From Polytrichum commune (taxonomy: Eukaryota; Streptophyta; Polytrichopsida; Polytrichales; Polytrichaceae), in the NCBI GenBank assembly GCA_950295325.1, contig OX485804.1, forward strand, positions 35,466,001-35,530,000: a stretch of DNA of 64,000 bases, in the 5' to 3' direction. Made by a program: the position numbers and the translations under genes. Of the stretch, positions 25,045 to 48,525 are shown in pieces; the first letter of the stretch is position 1; every line of letters starts with the position of its first letter. The notes under the pieces were generated by a model, which did not search any database, had not been told where the DNA came from, and saw only the letters and a list, made by a program, of their open reading frames with translations.

Positions 25045-25400
25045 TCTTATCTCAATCTCATTCTTCCAATTAGAATTGTCTAATTCCAATTGGATTCATC
25101 CATCCTTCTTTTTAGTTGGAATTGTCTAATTCCAACTAGATCTATCTATTCATTAAGAGTTGTCTAACTCCAATGAATAACATTCATCTTTCCAATTCTG
25201 GAGTGGTCCAACTCCAATGCACCTCATCGAGAGTTGTCTAACTCATGTGCACGTGTTCTCAATATGGAATGGTCTAATTCCAATGCACTATATGCGGAGC
25301 TGTCTAACTCCAGTGCACATGTTGTCAATCTGGAGTTGTCTAACTCCAATCCATCCATCTTCAACTAGGAGTTGTCTAGCTCCCATCATCCTCCGCTTAC
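25045..25400 (+). repeat. Palindromic minisatellite, about nine units
   Basis: Each unit, 31-45 bp, has a short dyad of the form ggagtt-gtct-aactcc followed by aatgcac or similar. Units begin near 25068, 25112, 25151, 25198, 25229, 25263, 25294, 25331 and 25367. Substitutions are often compensated on the other arm (ggaatt/aattcc versus ggagtt/aactcc), so the dyad is kept while the sequence drifts. Confidence 0.8.
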
Positions 25401-26889: not shown

Positions 26890-27210
26890 CATAACATTAT
26901 TCGGATCCATAACAATGTTATGTGGGACTGGTAGTATTCCACGTAGTATATATTCCTGAATATTCCCCACATTCATTATTCAGATCCATGACAGTGTTAT
27001 GTGGGACTGACAATATTCCACGTAGTATTCCCGGATATTCTCCACATTCATTATTCAGATTCATAACAATGTTATGTGGGATTGACAATATCCCTTGTAG
27101 TATTCCTGGATATTCCCCACATTCAGACTGAATGTGGGAAACACCTGGGAATATTGCGTGGAATATTGTCAGTCCCACATAACATTGTTATGGATCTGAA
27201 TAATGTTATG
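26890..27210. mobile_element. Foldback element with internal tandem units
   Basis: The ends cataacattattcggatcca and tggatctgaataatgttatg are inverted repeats. The left arm holds three tandem units of about 60-75 bp (attattcagatccatgacag, tgttatgtgggactgacaat, attccacgtagtattcccgg). The right arm is a single inverted unit starting near 27125. The transcript of either strand would fold into a long hairpin. The 86-codon minus frame over 26918-27178 is a product of the repeats, not a gene. Relatives lie at 15906, 22458, 54067 and 60836. Confidence 0.8.
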
Positions 27211-31250: not shown

Positions 31251-32753
31251 CACAATAGGAAGATTACATGATTGGTGCAAGGTTCAGGAGTACCACGAAG
31301 AGGAATGTGTGCCAGCTTTGGAAGTTAGGGCACTCATCTGTGAACATTCAATGTATCTTTCAAGACTTCAATTCATGTAAGCACTCCAGCTCAGTCTGAA
31401 AGGGACATTGTCAGATGCAGCATTCCTACTTTATTTCAGGATATCACTGATTTCAAGACCAACATTTTTGAGGTTTTGAAGTTTTCTCTAAAAATTGGAG
31501 GGAGGGAATCAATGGACGGGGAGAACTGACTGCTTGAGTTACAGATGAACCGATTGAATTCGAGAGATGACCGGTTGAAGCTGAAGACTTCAGGAAAATT
31601 TACCAATCATTTAAAAGGAATTTAGAGAATATACCTCAAATATATGAAGAAATACCAAAAGATGTCAACAAGTTGTAACCAGTTGGACTTGGAAACACTA
31701 GGATCTCAACCAATTATGTTTAGAAATCTCCCTGGACATTGGAGGGAATTATTGTGTACAACCGGAATTAGTTTACTCAAGGTTGTTTGAGATGAATCAG
31801 CAACAAACATTTAGGGTCAAATTTTAATGTTGGATGGATGAGAGGTTCGCTTCTACATGATAATTCTCTCTCTCTCAAGATTTTATATGCCCCTGAGGTG
31901 GTAAAACAGCAAAATCGGGTTGATCCTTCATGTGTTGAGTACTGGGTTTTACATTACCATCCAACCAGTGAAATTTGGTTGGTCGATCTAAAGAAAAGGG
32001 CCAATAATAGACTGTTGCGTTCCTTAGCCAAAAGCTGTTGATAATGCCTGTAGAACTCCATCCACACAGAAGGTTCATGAGTTTTTGCCTCAAATATGGA
32101 AATTATGATATATATACACTGATGTCAAAACTGATCATATTACCAACATCTTGACCTATTATTCTTAGAACATTGTGCAAGTGGAGATGAGAAGAAATTT
32201 GCATCCTGTGTGTACTGAACTTGATTTGCATCATCTGCATTCACGTTGCTCAGAACTGTTTTTTGTCAAACATCCAAAACATTGACAAAGCAAGGTCTCT
32301 GAAAATGATTGCCTGCATGCATCTTACTAATTCCATGCCGGTCCCAAATCTGAAAAATAACTGAGCTTCCAAGACCAAGTGAATTAAACCTTCAGAAAAC
32401 ATGAGCAATAAATTAATTGAGAGATATTCTATCTATTAATTGCCGATTGTACAAAACTTACTAAGACAAAATTCCCAGGAACACAATTATGGTTCCGATA
32501 ATAAATACAATGACAAGTGAAGATTCTTGCCTATTATACAGTTCGAGCTGCAAGCTTCAGCTGTTGGTAAAAACACCTGTGTTTACAAACGCTACACATT
32601 CATACTTGCGAGAAGATTTAACAAAGCAGGGTTGCCATGATGCATCAGGACTCCTGCCATTTTCGAGATATTGTGCCAATGGAACTCCACTTCCATTCTT
32701 TAGGAGGAAGATCAATGCACGTTCCCACCTTCTGAAGAGATGTCCATTGATGA
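31251..32753. other. Intergenic, 3' flank of the WRKY-like gene
   Basis: No gene seen. Part of 32400-32753 is likely the 3' untranslated region of the minus-strand gene that ends at 32754. Confidence 0.4.
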
Positions 32754-35700
32754 TCAGATAATCCCATGACCAAGTAATATCACCTTTGGGATCTCTTTTA
32801 CCTTCTCATTTACGATGCAGTTACGCTTGCCTACTTGCTCCAAGTGTGTCATAGCATGATTGACAAATAATGGGACCACATACACCTGTGAGTATTCTCG
32901 ACACCCACTATCCTCGAGTAGACTGTTGGAGATTTTGAAGCGCTCAACGAGCTCCCGACTTATCTCAAAAAGGTAGGAAGAGTGCTCATCTTCATCTTGT
33001 GGGCCCCAAGTTCCTTTAATTTGAGGCTTCAAAGTTGAGCAAAGACCACTTTGAGCATACCAACGCCGCGCCGTGGTTTGTCGCCACACGTCCCTTGGAA
33101 CTTCAGTTTGAAAAAAGAATTCGTAGGCTAAACGGGCCTCTCCCATGGAAGACTTGTCACAGAAGCCAAAACCCTCGTGTAGTTGTTGACTGCCCAATTC
33201 ATAGCCTTCGTAGTTTGTACCCGAAATACTCGTGGTTCGATTCACACCACCTTGAGTTCCTACAGATATACCCCCCAAGACCTGAATAGATGCCGAAAGG
33301 TTTGTTTGATTTTGTAGCTGATTGCTGTTTGCACTTGTCGAACTAGTGGCCATGTAACCCCTCACAGTTTCCCCTTTGTGCAAGAGCTCATAGTCTTCAA
33401 GAACAGACGTGTCCTCCACCTGGCATTTCAATGACACATTTATGTGATCTTGGTACCAGCCGAAACGGTCCTTTTCACGAGCGTTTGGACCCCCATCCCC
33501 AAGAGGGCACTCTGCAAGGATCTCCACTGATATCGACTTATGATCCTTTCGTTTCTCAAAATCAAAAGTCAGTGTTGGGAAAATCTTGGAAACTTTGGCC
33601 AAGCTTTTTGGTGGTGGCACACCAAATTCTGTGGAGTTGACGATACCCCCACGACCCGGGCGTATTGTAACTCTTAATGACAAAGCTCTGTCCATGGCAG
33701 ATACAAGTCCATCCTCCGTCCTCCTACCCCCAGTAGAGTCTTGTTCGTCCCCGTCGCCATTTGCACCTCCGTTGGACCCAATTCTCAGTGTGAAGAAATC
33801 AGGAATATTCAGTATGGAACTAAGGGTATTACCATTGGAGAAGTTGCCCTGACCTTGCTTTCCACCTCCAGAAGCACCGTCTGTGTGTTGCCGGCCTGAA
33901 ACTGACTCATCCTGTTACACATAGCCATACCCTTGTAATAAGTGGTAGGCAATCAACAAATCATTGAATGTTTACCCACCCTCTTATCCACACAGAAAAA
34001 TGACAGAAGTGTCTTTGAACAGCTAGGAAAATAAATTAAAGAAAGAGGGAAACAGAGGCCTTGAAACCATGCACACAAGATCGAGCCACACTAATTTCTT
34101 CAAAATGAATTTCCTATTGTTAGCAACCACACCTAGGTAGATATAAGAGTCAATTTTTCATTGTCCATCGTAGTGGGAAAATGGTATGTAGCACCTTTCA
34201 CAAGGCTCACTCATATGTAATGTCATTTTGATACTGGTTGGGTAGGTTCTTTGATACCATTATTGATATTATGTTCATTTATACCATGCTTTCAACTATA
34301 TACCAGTCAAACATTGATGCATACATGCATGTTACGGAGGCATCTGTGCACGTATGGGGCCTAGAAATTACCTGTGCAGTCAACAAGTGTTTTGCAACAG
34401 CCCAAAGCAATGGCTCTGCTACCTCCAGTTGTTGTTGATCACACTTTACAGCACATGTTCCAGGATGGTTTACACCAACACCAAACATCTCCGCCATCTC
34501 GAAGGGGGTAAGTCCCAAGCTTTGCTTATCCTGCACTTCAGGCACCGTAACTGCTACAACCTGAAAAGTGCAATGCTCATCAAGGGCTCCTGCCCACAAT
34601 AAACCCCACTCATTTTCTTCGCATCCGATGAGTTCAATGTTGAACCCGCTCGTCATCCTCACTTTGGAGTAGTCCAGCCCAACCCCAAGTACACAAGACA
34701 TGCTCTCTCCATCTAAGAAGACAAACTCGAGGAAATCACCTATCTCTGCTGAGTTTAGAACAACTCGTCCAGCAACTAGAATCTCTTGACCAGTTTGTAA
34801 TTTGCGTAGACGATCCAGGTCCTGAGAGGAGATAGGTTCTAAGATGCTGCAGTTTTCATCCAATGTAATTGATGAGTTATCGTCACTGTTAGAAGCAATC
34901 AACAGAGTTCCATTGCGAGTAGAATCATCATCAGGTTTGTCTAAGGTGCAAGGAGAACTTTCTGGAACTGTTTTCATGAGTGCGAAAGTATCAAGACTTT
35001 GCTTGGTATTTGCATATCCCTGGTCAAGGGTGAAGTCTTGTGATTGACCCCAATCCTGCGATGGTCCAGGAAAGTCCCAGGATTGAGAGCCTACAGCAAC
35101 TTGAGAACAATCCCATTCTTGGGTACCGCCTGAAAGCAGATGGGGATCCTCCAAAGGTGTACCCATCATCTCTGTGCCATGTTCCAAAGAACTCTCTTCC
35201 CCACTTCTGTGCCAACAGGGATCCTCATCACTTCTTTCAGAAATTTCTTCACTGTCCACATCCAATGCTCCAGAGATCTCTACTGCTACAGGGTCCACTT
35301 TCCGTCGCAAACTCATCGAGGTTTGCAAATTTTTAACCCAACTGGGCTGTGGAGCCTGCACTACTGGTCCCTTGCACTTGCCTCCTCTTCCAGCACCTCT
35401 TCTTGACATGATTCCGTGCTCCACTCCTGGCTGCACATCCCTGGACTCATCTCTCTGCCTTTTCTGAGGGGGGGCCATGCATGAATGGCTGCCAACATAC
35501 ATCACCTCTTCTGTTTGAGACTGCCCATTGATCGATGTGATTACTACTTTCCTAGCTCCACAACCATCAGCAAGACATTCGTAATTATAACTGCAACATT
35601 ATGTAAACATTAGAGTAAGGCTGCCGTGTCCAAAATATTAGATGATAAACATTGGACAAGGGGGATGACCTTATAAGGATTCAGGCTCAAAACCACACCA

Positions 35701-38169
35701 CCCCACCCTACTCCAAAATTGGAGAAGGCTCAAAATCCAAACATAAGCACTTGTATTTCCAAACCATTTTCCAAATAGCCGAAAAGCCTGTTTCACACTG
35801 CTTGATAATGGGTATTTGTGTGTAATTCCCCGGTAATGGCTTAAATGCACCTAAATTAGGCGGAATTCAGTTCCTTCCGATGGTGAGAGCCTTTTTAAGG
35901 GTAGGCTTCAGGCTCTGGGGTGGGCAACCAAATCTCAATAGCACCCAAACCCAATCCCCCCACAACTTTTCCATCTTCTATTCAGATTCGAGATGGGGTG
36001 GCCAGATAAGACATCCATGAAACTGCAGAAACTGCTCTTTATGACAGAAATTATGATAAAAACTACAGAGTGGTTCACCATGGGAAACACTATAGTGTGG
36101 CCCACATTATTAAACACTGTCAAGGAAATACAATGTGCGGTCCTCACAGATAAAATATTAGAACTCATTATAACATACAATTACTATAAATTGAAAGTTG
36201 TGCATCTCAATTTGAAAGTTTGAGTTCATGTGTCTTATTTTCCATCCAGATTTTTAGACCCTAACTTAAAAAAGTCACTGAAAATATGATAATAAGGTGA
36301 TATACCTGTTTCCTCGACTCCCAGCAAAAGACTTGCTGCCACACTTGCACCATTTGTAATCATCACCCTGATTCTGAGTTGATGAAGCTTCTTCTGACTT
36401 GCTTGCTGCAGACTCTGTAACCAAGCTTTGCTGTAGCAATGCATGCACTTGGTCCCTGGGAGCAGGCATACAACCAGAATGAAATGCTGTTAGTAGCCCT
36501 CAATAAACTGCAAAGTTTTGAGAAGAAACACCATTCGCATGAACAAAGGAGAGACTGACTCATATACCTGTAAAACTCAAGACCACAATCGATTATAAAG
36601 AATGTCTCCAATGTCTAAGGGCACTGACTAGTGACTCCAATGGTTCCAACAAAGTCATGTAGTTAATAACAAATTTGTCCAGCCAGAACAATATAAAGAA
36701 AGGTAGAGAACTCAGAGCAATGACAACAGGACCAACCATTGTGCTTCTAAAATGGTTCTGAGTTAGCTGGCTCCAAATAATTTCTGTTCAAAGACCTGGG
36801 CATTGCTCAAATTGTACATGTGGGCAAACCAGGTAACTACGCTTCAATGTAAAGCGCGGGACAAGTTAACTAATTGGACAGAATCTGCAATCGTGGTGGG
36901 ATGTTGGAGAAGAAAATAGCCCATGTGTGACAGAACAATCTATGGATTTCACTACTACACTTGATTGTTCTACCTTGACATTTAATGCAAAGTGAAGTCT
37001 ATTCACAACAAGAAAGCAGTGAATGATGACATGCATTTGGAATTTGGTTGACTGACTATGAATATCTCTCAGTCTGACATGAAGTCAGGAGGATTCCAAG
37101 AATATCGGAAATGTACATTGACATGTGCAAATCAGCTTGTGGAAACAATACAAACGTCCAGAAACTTTGTATTCAGAGGAGAAAATCAATTGATTTAGAA
37201 TTTGTTCTATCAGGGCCAATGATTTTGTACCAGAACCCGTAAAAGTACTGTCTTCCAGTTATCTCAGTTCTAAAAATGGCCTTTTCATGACAGTCTTGCA
37301 AAGTTCCGGCTACCTTATAAGATCTCAACAATTCGTAAAAAGACATTGTAGAACACATGCTCAGAGCAACAACTTTCATTAAAACCTAAATCCCCTAGTC
37401 ATAAAAAACCAATATGTGAAATTTCAAACCTGTGTGATCGGCTCAGGCGTTTTGATTTATGTCGAGAAAGCTTTTTGGAATGACGACGCGCAAAGATTGA
37501 TGGAGTTTCCTTGAAAATAATATCATTGACATCATCACTCATGGCTGGGGTGAGCCCTGAAGGACTTAAAGAATTACCAGATGCAGTTGATGTCCTGGAT
37601 GGTAAACTACTGTGAGGTCCACGTGCTAGTTTCTCAGCAGGTGTCATTTTCGGAGATTTACCTGCATTGTTCAACTACCAAATTAGAACCAAGGTTTGAT
37701 TTACACCAAAACACTATGTTCCAGGTCGAATGCTCATTTTAATCATGAAGTTTTCCAAAAACAGCCACGATCCAATTGACCACTTTATCGATACACCAAA
37801 CTTTCCATTTAGATTCAATAACCAATATGAAGCACGGAGTGCACGCATTGATCATTCCGAGATGAGTACTATAGTCAGGAAGATACATTACTACTCCATA
37901 ACTCCGTATCGATTCTGTTTCTCTTTTAGTTTGTCACAACTACATGTGGTTTGATGTAATTCTACATGTTATAGGATTGCAGTCCTGCTGTTCCTCGTTC
38001 CTGGTCAATTCACCCCATAATGACAAAGTTCATCAAAAATTTTAAAATAAATAATCAGTGAGATCCCTCATGAAGGTCCGAAACACTGATAGCTTTGGAG
38101 CTCACCTGAAGAGGAAGGGAAACTGGAAACTCTCGGGACCCGCCTCTTGACAGTGGGCTCTTGATCCAT
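32754..38169 (-). CDS. WRKY-like zinc-finger protein with SQ/TQ cluster and novel C-terminus
   Basis: Five exons were read on the minus strand: 38169-38106, 37661-37430, 36455-36306, 35590-34372 and 33911-32754. All introns are GT-AG, and the 2823 nt give 940 residues. Residues 79-99 are a strongly basic, nuclear-localisation-like stretch. Residues 130-186 align with a WRKY domain: W134 starts WCKCGSK where WRKYGQK is usual, then G144-S145, then C154-X4-C159-X24-H184-X-C186. Downstream text INGQSQTEEVMYVGSHSC mirrors the DGQ...YKG.HNH end of WRKY zinc fingers. The intron at S149 is phase 2 and lies five residues before the first Cys, the position of the plant R-type WRKY intron. Residues 305-333 hold five S/TQ motifs. 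I do not recognise residues 390-940. A DNA-binding nuclear regulator is inferred. The altered heptapeptide makes W-box binding doubtful. The gene faces PNO1 head to head. Confidence 0.85.
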
Positions 38170-38879: not shown

Positions 38880-39040
38880 AGGTGCTTACTGGGTGCGGGT
38901 AGGGTCAAGACCCTGGGTTCAACCGAACGCAGGCCATGATGCAATTGAGGGGCTTGGCATCTCGGCCGTTCATTATGGGCGGTGGGGATCTTTGGGCAGT
39001 TTCTATCTTTTGTGGCCGGGCAGGTAGGGGGACATGAGGA
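38880..39040 (+). repeat. Possible SINE-like block in the PNO1 promoter
   Basis: The block has a B-box-like cctgggttcaaccg near 38911 and a GC-rich body unlike its surroundings. I found neither target duplications nor a second clear copy in the window, so this is tentative. Confidence 0.3.
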
Positions 39041-39059
39041 AGCCCAACCTTAAACCCTA
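39033..39059 (+). promoter_or_regulatory. Site II and telo-box motifs upstream of PNO1
   Basis: The sequence agcccaacc at 39032-39040 contains TGGGCT on the opposite strand (site II). Next comes taaaccctaa with the telo-box AAACCCTAA at 39051-39059, 42 bp before the ATG. In plants this motif pair is known from promoters of ribosomal protein and ribosome biogenesis genes, which fits PNO1. Action here is inferred from motif and context only. Confidence 0.65.
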
Positions 39060-39100
39060 ATTCTTTCTGCGCTCCAACTCGATCTTCGAAGCGCAGGGCT

Positions 39101-40177
39101 ATGGCGGGCGAAGAAGCTGCTGCCGCTGCTGGCCTCGACCACCACGGCAACGGCGATGCGCAGCCCATGGCTGTCCACGAGGAGCAAGGCGCGGCCGCCA
39201 GTTCCAGGGACTCCTCGGGCCAGGATGTGGCCATGGATCTCGTTCCCCCGCCCAAACCCCAATTCAAGGCATTGTCCGCACACGAAATAAATGGAGGCAA
39301 GTTCGAGTTTCGCAAGGTGTTTGTGCCTGCACATCGGTTCACGCCACTCAAGGAGCATTGGATGGAAATCTACACGCCTATATTCGAGAACATGAAGATC
39401 GACATCCGTATGAACTTAAAGGTGAGCCTGCTAGGGTTTGCCAAAGTTTCTTTGCTGAATTTTTACCGCTTTCGGTTTAATTGATAGAAGCACCTGGATA
39501 GGAGGTGTTATTCTCGCGAATTTGTCGTCGAAGGCTGGAGGTACAAGGTTTCTACGTTGTATGTGAAACGAGAGAGTGGACTCCGAATTGTGCTGTTACT
39601 TCATCATCGAGTTGGTCTAACTCCATATGTAATCCTGAAACCTTGCAATACGAGAATTAGATGGCCTTGGAAGACTACTGCTCCTTTCAAAGTTGCTGGA
39701 AAATACATTAGGGTTTTGGCTTCCTTATTCTGACTTGCTCTACAATTTGTTCAGGCTCGGAAAGTGGAGCTAAAGACGCGGACAGACACACCTGATGCCG
39801 GATCTCTTCAGAAGTGTGCTGATTTTGTACACGCCTATATTCTGGGATTTGACATTCAAGATGCAGTTGCTTTACTACGACTCGACGATCTCTATGTGGA
39901 ATCCTTTGAAATTAAGGATGTAAAAACCCTAAAAGGGGAACATCTTTCTCGAGCCATTGGACGGTTGTCAGGCAAAGGAGGCAAGACAAAGTTTGCAATA
40001 GAAAACTCTACACGCACTCGAATAGTCATTGCTGACACAAGAATACATATATTGGGCTCGTTTGCAAACATTCGGGTTTCTAGGGATGCACTTTGCAGTT
40101 TAATTCTGGGCTCTCCTGCTGGGAAGGTGTACTCCAAGTTGAGAACTGTGTCGAGCCGATTGGCCGAGAAATTTTGA
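39101..40177 (+). CDS. PNO1: Pre-rRNA-processing protein PNO1 (Dim2/Rrp20 family, KH domain)
   Basis: There are two exons, 39101-39421 and 39755-40177. The phase-0 intron runs from gtgagc to ttgttcag, and the product is 247 residues. PNO1 binds the 3' end of 18S pre-rRNA with the endonuclease Nob1 and acts in late maturation of the small ribosomal subunit, in nucleolus and cytoplasm. The N-terminal ~45 residues are Ala- and Asp-rich and variable. The conserved core begins near FEFRKVFVPAHRF and continues through HWMEIYTPIFENMKIDIRMN. The second exon holds the KH region with the GKGG loop at 180-183 and the signature ENSTRTRIVIADTRIHILGS. The C-terminus GKVYSKLRTVSSRLAEKF is the family ending. 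The start was chosen because it is the first ATG in frame, directly after the telo-box region. A single complete copy with no lesions. Confidence 0.95.
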
Positions 40178-45130: not shown

Positions 45131-48100
45131 ATGAAGAACGAAGATGAAGCAGCCTCGTTGCAAACAACGGTATCTGAGCTACTAAAACAGCTTCAGAAGA
45201 AGCAAACATTCGAGAGCGCCGCAAGTGCTTTGTCCACGCTTATCCAAGACCACTACGCAGAGGCAGCTCCAGCACAACAGAATTCGGTACTCTACTTCTT
45301 CTATATTTGTTTCCATAATCTGCTCAAAATAAATAACGATTATCGCCGAATGTCAGGAGCTTTTATTGGTACGCATTCGAGATAATTCAAAATAGTTCAT
45401 GGTGATGGTGCTCTGCGTTGATCATATTTAGGGGTTTATCGATTGAGGTGTTTCGTTGAATAACAAGTGTATAGCTTCTTTTGACTATGATGCGTACTTG
45501 ACCTTAGCTTGAAGAACTGCCTTTAGTTTCATTGAGACTGAAGTATCCAGGGATGAATTGTCCTGTACCCTGTGTCAATTCTTCTGTGTTCTTATATATA
45601 TAGACTTGATTCATCTATGTAAGAGCAACCACGTGATGCAAGTAAATATCTGCTTCTTAGTCTTGTGGTGGATATGTTGAGTGTTGTATTTCAAATCGCC
45701 ATAGCAATTAATTTTTACAAGAGTCTTAATATAATTGGTACTCTGTTCAGTTGTCACAACGAATATCACCGAAAGTCAGGAGCTTTTATTGGTACACATT
45801 CGAGATGATCCAAAATAGTGCGCGGTGCTATACTTTGATTATGTTAAGGGGGTGTATGAATTGAGGCGTTTTGATGAATAATAAATTGGATAGCTTCTGT
45901 CGACTATGATGCTTATTGCACTTGGGTTGAACTTCCTTTAGTTCTAGATAGACTGAAATATCCAGGGATGCATTGTCCAACCCTGCGTCAATTCTTACGT
46001 GTTCCTATACATGACTTGAATTTTTGATGCAAGGGCAACCCGGTGATATAAAAAAATGTGTTTTGCATGTGTTGAGTGTTTCTTCCAAATTGCCGCAATA
46101 ATTGAGTTGAAAAGGAGTTTTGATATATTAGGCAGGTGCTTGGTACACTTCTTCCGAATTCATGTACTTGCTGGAGTGGTTTGTGGTGAGTTGGACTCTC
46201 AGTCAGATGGATTGTATATAATTTTAGGATCATGGTTGATATGCGCAGATGTATGCAGCAGTGTGCAGGGCAGCCACATTGCTGACGACAAGATTCACTG
46301 CAGTTGCATTTTGGATAGTGGGGCTCCAGCTTTTTGAATCTGCTGCAGCTGTTGTGACACGTCCTGAGGAGAAAAAGAAAATTCGCGGGTACATCAAACA
46401 AGCGAGTGAAGTTGTAGGGGAGCAGACAGAGAGGGAGGATGCTCTGCCTCCTAGCATGCGAGCAGGCACCAGTACGATTCTACAAACCTGATGAAGACAC
46501 TTCACTCAAATCTATAGAAGGATGAGAGTTGCAGGGTTTTGGTGCAGGGTATTGGTAGTTCTTTTCACAGTGCTCTGCATTTTACTTTTGAAATGCAGAA
46601 TTATTGAAGTCTTTGGGTGGTGATATTTTGTGTGGCTGATTGATTGTTTATGTTCAGGTTCATCAGGCTTTTTGTTTGAAGGCCAATTGACTGTAGGTGC
46701 AGAACCTCCTCCTCCTCAATGGTTACAGTCTCAGAACCTTTTCACATCTCTATTTCGAGATCAAGTTCAGCAGATGGCAGAAAGAGAAGCTGCAGTTGCT
46801 GCAAATGAACAAGGTATTTCTTTGTATATTCCCATAGAAAACATGAACCCAAGATCTTTGTTTACTCTAGTGCTTTTCTGGTGTTAATACAAAGTCCACA
46901 ATTTCCGACCATGGATCAGAATCAAGAAACTCCAGTCGTACTTGATGTGGGATATTTTCCTCATTCCCATCAACGATTTTATAAGTGTGACTATATTACC
47001 CTGCTTCATCATCGCTCACTTGGAGATTTCTGTCACTTTTAGCAATACATGATAGGTGCTTTATGTGACACACCATGTTTCCATCATCTGAAAGGTCTAG
47101 CATCAAAACTTTCAATTTGAGTTGCTTGTGGCTGTTGTAGGATGATGTAAAAACCCTGTAGTGTATTTCTTCTTTGTCAATCTGTTGCAAGCAGCCAAAG
47201 TTTTTTGTGCCATCATGTTCTCACACCAGTTCTACCAGTAGATTGTGGAACTCTGTGATTTGGGCAGTATTTGGTACTCAATTGACACTGAGCTTTGTGA
47301 TGCTGTTGAAGGTAACGAGACTGAGGAGGATAGGGGAAGCCAAGGGCGAACTGTCCAACAACTCACTGAAGAGCTTCAAAGCATAATGGAGACTGTGAAT
47401 GCCAGAGTTGCAGGACAGAACCTGCCAATGAGTGATGAATTTGTGGGTTTAGAGGAGGCCATTCAGGCAACCCTTCAGGTAACTCAGGTTTAACTAACTT
47501 GTCTTGTAAATATTCTAAACACTCGTGTTGGTACTTATGAAATTGATCATTACTTAATGAATTATCACCTCTTTGTACCCTGCTGAATTGACCAGTCTCC
47601 TATTGTCACGACTAACATTGTCTTGTGAGGAGGAAGTTTGCACTCTTCATAAGTTGCGGAGGTATTGAGACTTCACCATTCACTGACAAAGTGCACATTG
47701 TCATTTCGATTCTTTCCCATTTTTCACAACTTTGTCCTTACAAAACTTGGGTTCCTTTGCTTCTCTAGTTTACCACTTGTTGGCGAAGGATTATGTGAAT
47801 ACGTGGGATTTTTAAACCATGCTAGTACAGTCTATGATTTGTTTCCTGGTTCTGACTTTAGATGAGGTGGATTTGATAAGTGAATTGTAGATAACTGAGT
47901 CTCATTATTAGGAAAACTTTTCTATGGTGCTCAGGAAATTGGAAGTGTACCTCGTGGTCCACCCCCAGCATCAAAAGAGGAAGTTGCAAAGCTCCCAATA
48001 GTAGAAGTGACGCAGGCATACTTGGAAAAAACGGGAGAAGGTGCTGAATGTGCAGTTTGTCAGGAGCCTATGGTGGCGGGGGATAAATTGCAGGAGATGC

Positions 48101-48525
48101 CCTGCAAACACAATTTTCACCCAGATTGTCTCAAACCCTGGCTGGTACAGAGAATTTATCTAGATCTTATTTTGTTACATTGTTTGGTCAGGATGAGGGT
48201 TTTTGATTCAGGAAGTAACTAAAATGTGCTGGACACAGATTTTCCTGTGTGTCCTAGACTATGTGATTGAGGAATGAGGTGAGTGTGGGAGTGAATGTTT
48301 GGATTTATTTTGAGGGCTACTCTGACATATGAATTCTTGATTGATATCTAATTATCTTATTCTGTGTGACAACAGGATGAGCACAACTCTTGTCCAATAT
48401 GTCGACATGAAATGCCAACTGATGACCACGAGTATGAGCGACAGAAAGAACGTGATAGGGAAGCTGAGGAAGAGAGGAAAGGGGCTGAAAATGCGCTACG
48501 AGGTGGAGAGTTTATGTATATTTAA
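45131..48525 (+). CDS. AIP2: RING-H2 E3 ubiquitin ligase, AIP2-like
   Basis: Six exons (45131-45286, 46249-46471, 46658-46813, 47312-47478, 47935-48144, 48376-48525) give 1062 nt and 353 residues. The product resembles Arabidopsis ABI3-interacting protein 2, which ubiquitinates ABI3 and so dampens abscisic acid signalling. Conserved blocks outside the RING are RFTAVAFWIVGLQLFESA, GFLFEGQLTVGAEPPPPQWL and GPPPASKEEVAKLP. The RING-H2 ligands are C273, C276, C291, H293, H296, C299, C310 and C313, with W303 in the E2-contact position. The tail (EERKGAEN to GGEFMYI) is the family's C-terminus. It is about 40 residues longer than Arabidopsis AIP2, mostly in the middle region. Exon 2 uses the donor CACCA|GTACGA, chosen because it keeps phase 1. 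The target protein here is unknown; ABI3 is inferred from the family only. Confidence 0.9.
45344..46012 (+). repeat. Duplication inside intron 1 of the AIP2-like gene
   Basis: The sequence at about 45344-45595 is repeated at about 45767-46010. Shared blocks are gtcaggagcttttattggta, cattcgagat, gattgaggtgtttcgttgaa / gaattgaggcgttttgatga, gactatgatgc, atccagggatg and gtcaattctt. Unit 1 begins in the 3' part of sequence that still reads open from exon 1. The copies differ at many sites. Confidence 0.75.

Follow-up and report, generated by a model that had tools for sequence, protein, structure and literature searches.

A plant WRKY domain with a retained zinc site and a replaced DNA-reading face, predicted to have lost W-box binding

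Results

The minus strand of the window (the whole stretch of DNA analysed, 64,000 nucleotides) encodes a plant protein in which one WRKY domain is recognised. In this domain WCKCGSK takes the place of WRKYGQK, further side chains on the second DNA-contacting strand are changed, and none of the four zinc ligands is lost. The WRKY factors form a large family in plants, whose best-known property is binding to the W-box. On balance we favour the reading that this is a derived WRKY domain that has lost W-box binding and now serves as an interaction or dimerisation module in a larger, probably nuclear protein. Such a protein would descend from a classical WRKY factor; the zinc-held scaffold would have been retained while the DNA-reading face was largely dismantled, leaving a folded domain that would act in interaction or dimerisation. 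The larger protein that houses it would probably be nuclear; its N-terminal segment is basic, its middle is acidic, and its C-terminal region belongs to no recognised family.

We set a predicted gene model of five exons from the reading frame and the splice sites. The motif WCKCGSK occupies residues 134-140 (36352-36332, minus strand) within exon 3 (36306..36455), which carries the first WRKY strand. The zinc-finger half of the domain, (S)YNYEC...HSC, lies in the first part (35479..35590) of exon 4, the whole of which (35590-34372) is predicted to be spliced after exon 3 with donor CAG|GTATAT and acceptor TTGCAG|TTATAA. Residues 129-186 of the predicted protein are GDDYKWCKCGSKSFAGSRGNSYNYECLADGCGARKVVITSINGQSQTEEVMYVGSHSC, and the ligands C154-X4-C159-X24-H184-X-C186 are all retained. 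The combination of WCKCGSK and C-X4-C-X24-H-X-C described in an earlier note on this DNA was thus found in its place, on the minus strand after the predicted splice.

Pfam assigned the 555-residue partial protein to WRKY (PF03106) with E = 3.7e-9 and 37.1 bits, and the match covers residues 130-186, the identical range that the earlier note had delimited as the WRKY stretch. In the profile search that the note had proposed as a check, the 64-residue domain reached 42.9 bits (E = 5.7e-11); both queries exceed the curated cut-off of 21 bits, and neither matched any other Pfam family at E <= 1. Three canonical WRKY domains taken from the PDB matches score 97.0, 93.9 and 94.0 bits with the same model, so the domain is markedly diverged yet unambiguous. 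The exon 3 reading frame alone gave no Pfam match, 60 residues taken from the beginning of exon 4 gave 23.5 bits over profile positions 23-58, and with the two exons joined the match spans the junction; the splice therefore completes the domain.

Comparison of the 64-residue domain with PDB sequences at E <= 1 returned 13 distinct entries: nine named WRKY, one RRS1 (a receptor bearing WRKY) and three phosphoribulokinases, the last at E 0.85-0.88 and taken as chance. WRKY33 was the top match (E 1.8e-6), in agreement with the homology previously claimed. A 79-residue query at E <= 10 returned 14 sequences, namely the same ten WRKY-type chains, the three phosphoribulokinases and ribosomal protein S11 (0.73). 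Chance resemblance to WRKY is rejected on the Pfam E of 5.7e-11, and by sequence comparison the domain is a true WRKY domain. Its heptapeptide keeps four of the seven positions of WRKYGQK. Many accepted members have a replaced heptapeptide according to the part of PMC5112548 used here, so the departure weakens the claim of W-box function and not that of membership. The zinc ligands are of the C2HC kind, with a spacing, CX4CX24HXC, that falls outside both patterns given in the available part of PMC7026264. AlphaFold2 run without an alignment on exon 4 alone, as distinct from the spliced domain, gave a mean pLDDT of 32.1, too low to be of use.

Intron 3 (35591..36305, minus strand; 715 bases, phase 2) splits codon 149 (AG|T, Ser149) five residues ahead of the first zinc cysteine, C154. 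The canonical PR intron of WRKY domains is likewise of phase 2. An intron at the Arg position, some five residues ahead of the zinc cysteine that comes first, is the R-type/PR intron that the intron rule for WRKY domains associates with classical plant members (PMC5018666, PMC4350883). This conserved position places the gene among the classical WRKYs of multicellular plants and not on the remote WRKY-GCM1 branch, contrary to the earlier suggestion of a deeply diverged WRKY-GCM1-superfamily factor. A FLYWCH/GCM1-type relative is rejected on the same intron and on Pfam, which listed none of the FLYWCH, GCM1 and FAR1 families at E <= 1 for the partial protein or the domain. The gene is therefore a diverged classical WRKY. 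The sequence is nearest to a group I N-terminal domain and the intron fits the other classes. Our yardstick being ten solved WRKY-type sequences, we leave the group unassigned. A tblastn search of the window found no second WRKY domain.

We mapped the DNA-contact positions by alignment onto GhWRKY17 and AtWRKY1-N, using the mutant data in the available parts of PMC12905487 and PMC7026264, respectively. Among the GhWRKY17 positions there reported to abolish or nearly eliminate binding, 6 of 11 are replaced here and 5 are kept. Alanine mutants abolish binding at seven of these, four of which are replaced (Y252C, Q254S, R264S, Y266N) and three kept (K255, Y267, R278); the four nearly-eliminating positions divide evenly into replaced (R250C, P256S) and kept (W249, K251). 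The two positions where mutation has a moderate effect have changed as well (K258A, K268E). Mapping onto AtWRKY1-N shows three of the five non-binding alanine positions replaced (Q121S, Y133N, R135E), with K122 kept and an Arg at K144. The earlier note's observation that DNA-contacting residues are replaced while zinc ligands are kept therefore stands, and the change extends past WRKYGQK: the beta 3 replacements, which that note left out, are an addition to it.

The two cysteines alone need not abolish binding, because the AtWRKY1-N mutants R2A, K3A and Y4A still bind DNA in the data of PMC7026264 seen here, and the effect of the heptapeptide Gln varies between WRKY domains, as stated in the available part of PMC12905487. 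The beta 3 replacements favour loss. From the residue mapping, binding to the W-box (TTGACC/T) is most likely lost.

The main rival to loss of W-box binding is a changed DNA target, in which the domain still binds DNA at another site, its base preference altered by the Cys and Ser residues of the reading strand. We consider this rather unlikely. Several retained features would suit it: the heptapeptide keeps K3, G5 and its last Lys, named the key residue in the part of PMC7026264 used here, and the equivalent of GhWRKY17 Arg278 is present, as are the four zinc ligands. W1 and the Tyr267 equivalent are retained too and speak against loss of W-box binding. Persistent binding by the R2A and Y4A mutants of AtWRKY1-N (PMC7026264, same part) points the same way, as do the basic flanks, with Lys/Arg:Asp/Glu ratios of 11:2 at residues 70-100 and 10:4 at 187-240. 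However, beta 3 has lost contacts too, with Ser for Arg264, Asn for Tyr266 and Glu for Lys268, and the domain has a net charge of 0, whereas five canonical ones carry +6, +7, +7, +8 and +4.

Outside the domain, the predicted protein begins in exon 1 (38106..38169, minus strand), which runs from the ATG to the donor CAGGTGAGC in phase 1 and starts MDQEPTVKRR. Exon 2 (37430..37661, minus strand) has a strongly basic end, RRHSKKLSRHKSKRLSRSHR; across residues 70-100 there are 11 Lys/Arg against 2 Asp/Glu, and the basic stretch of this exon may be NLS-like. Residues 187-240, after the domain, hold 10 Lys/Arg and 4 Asp/Glu. The remainder of exon 4 (34372..35478, minus strand) encodes an acidic stretch and a Trp/Phe-containing stretch, together at about residues 240-345 (18 Asp/Glu and 5 Lys/Arg at 240-310; six aromatic residues at 300-345), followed by residues 403-555 without a recognised family. 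This residue composition suggests a nuclear signal and an activation region. The strongest 19-residue hydropathy across 919 residues is 1.29, which indicates no membrane segment, and a membrane fusion of the WRP1 type is rejected on that value.

Exon 5 (32820..33911, minus strand) likewise has no recognised family and follows exon 4 across a predicted phase 0 junction. Between them, the two exons leave about 500 residues on the C-terminal side of the WRKY domain (32820-34830, minus strand) without a Pfam family or a PDB match. At E <= 10, Pfam returned no family for four C-terminal pieces (a spliced one from residue 403 to about residue 612, and 33150-33689, 32817-33200 and 32563-32802); at E <= 1 the whole exon 5 frame matched nothing and the whole 555-residue partial protein matched WRKY alone. 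In the PDB, neither residues 403-555 nor exon 5 matched a sequence at E <= 10. The mean pLDDT of exon 5 from AlphaFold2 without an alignment was 32.8. Pattern searches gave 88 matches for exon 5 in prokaryote contigs, 7 for exon 5 in viral contigs and 4 for the domain in viral contigs, none of them confirmed; as these collections hold prokaryotes and viruses, the null result says little about plants. The C-terminal region could prove to be a new plant domain.

In the predicted model the four introns measure 444, 974, 715 and 460 bases in order, every donor reads CAG|GT, and the exon phases are compatible. The protein has about 900 residues, translation up to 32820 giving 919; that end is our own cut, since the exon 5 frame stays open to 32757. 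Where it stops, a second frame (32560-32805, minus strand) is open for 82 codons, and codon scores give no basis for choosing between the two. The change of frame near the 3' end of exon 5 would come from a frameshift, from an intron that escaped the prediction or from another last exon.

Whether exons 4 and 5 belong to one gene is a question independent of the readings of the domain. A WRKY gene ending in exon 4, with a separate gene around exon 5, is possible, although we lean clearly against it. Exon 4 is open beyond its donor to a stop near 34279, exon 5 contains an internal Met, and its acceptor has no obvious pyrimidine tract. Against this, the donor CAG|GTAATT, the acceptor GTAACAG|GAT and a matching phase connect the two exons.

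A decaying or recently inactivated WRKY gene, its substitutions reflecting relaxed constraint and not a new role, appears improbable to us. The stop of the exon 5 frame at about 32757, with the other frame open over 32805-32560 and codon scores that favour neither, is what such a gene might show. But exon 4 is open for 406 codons and exon 5 for 364, lengths with chances of about 6e-11 and 7e-10 given the start and frame and the window's stop frequency, which argues against an old pseudogene; the four CAG|GT donors, the compatible phases and the retained zinc ligands also speak against decay.

Elsewhere in the window, a frame at 39734-40174 (plus strand) encodes PNO1, an rRNA-processing KH protein and divergent neighbour of the WRKY gene (Pfam KH_PNO1_2nd, E 1.8e-43; PDB 7suk_SO, named PNO1, E 4.3e-59). 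The frame at 39038-39481 resembles the start of PNO1 by eye, and Pfam gave it no family. A RING-type zinc finger frame lies at 47899-48219 (plus strand; Pfam zf-RING_2, E 1.6e-10) and presumably encodes an E3 ubiquitin ligase like AIP2. Tandem repeats occur at 25199-25350 (66 bases, 2.3 copies) and 26895-27125 (75 bases, 3.0 copies), and Rfam gave no matches over the window.

Discussion

A natural copy of the domain in which the zinc scaffold is kept and both DNA-contacting strands have lost side chains would offer a clean test of which residues serve the fold and which serve DNA reading. If the preferred reading, loss of W-box binding and re-use for interaction, is right, it would be a further case beside legume WRP1 of a WRKY domain put to other use. 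As to the two new cysteines, Cys135 and Cys137 are two apart on one expected strand, which makes a disulfide between them unlikely. A bolder proposal, that Cys-Lys-Cys on the former reading strand binds metal or bridges a dimer and that the C-terminal module of about 500 residues represents an undescribed family, is speculative, and we give it little credence.

Altered heptapeptides are not rare, and the earlier note's statement that few natural variants are tolerated was overstated: the available part of PMC5112548 gives 20 replacements of W-R-K-Y, including W-R-K-C, W-K-K-C and W-H-K-C. W-C-K-C is not among the replacements given there. In rice, group 1N domains with WRICGQK and WRMCGQK are described in the part of PMC544883 used here. 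WCKCG, looked for in the main texts of the papers available, turned up in a single paper, which by its title concerns brain injury and not WRKY.

The best solved match, WRKY33 chain 6j4g (31.5 bits, 22 of 58 aligned residues identical), has in common with the present domain the C-X4-C spacing and a GSH close to the end. We take this chain to be the N-terminal domain of WRKY33. It starts DGYNW, the N-domain consensus in the available part of PMC5112548, which fits that identity. The domain described here differs from it in WCKCGSK, in the terminal Cys ligand and in the R-type intron, which is absent from group I N domains (PMC5018666). Group III domains (C2HC) share the H-X-C end of the zinc site, and the R-type intron is also found in that group (PMC5018666). 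Their spacing is CX7CX23HXC in the part of PMC7026264 used here, whereas the present one is CX4CX24HXC, and membership of group III is rejected on that difference.

The closest functional precedent is GmWRP1, in that a lone, diverged WRKY domain does not bind the W-box. As described in the available parts of PMC4449531 and PMC8871812, legume GmWRP1 and its Medicago counterpart MtWRP1 (PMC8871812) carry a lone group-I-N-like WRKY domain with an altered heptapeptide (WRKYEDK in GmWRP1; WKKYEEK also occurs in legume WRP1) fused to an unrelated region. With W-box DNA, GmWRP1 gave no band in EMSA (PMC4449531, same part), and its WRKY domain may be an interaction module. The WRP1 proteins carry a transmembrane domain at the N terminus and localise to the Golgi, whereas no membrane segment is indicated here. 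What distinguishes the present domain from the known variants is the extent of the loss, on both DNA-contacting strands, together with the C-terminal extension.
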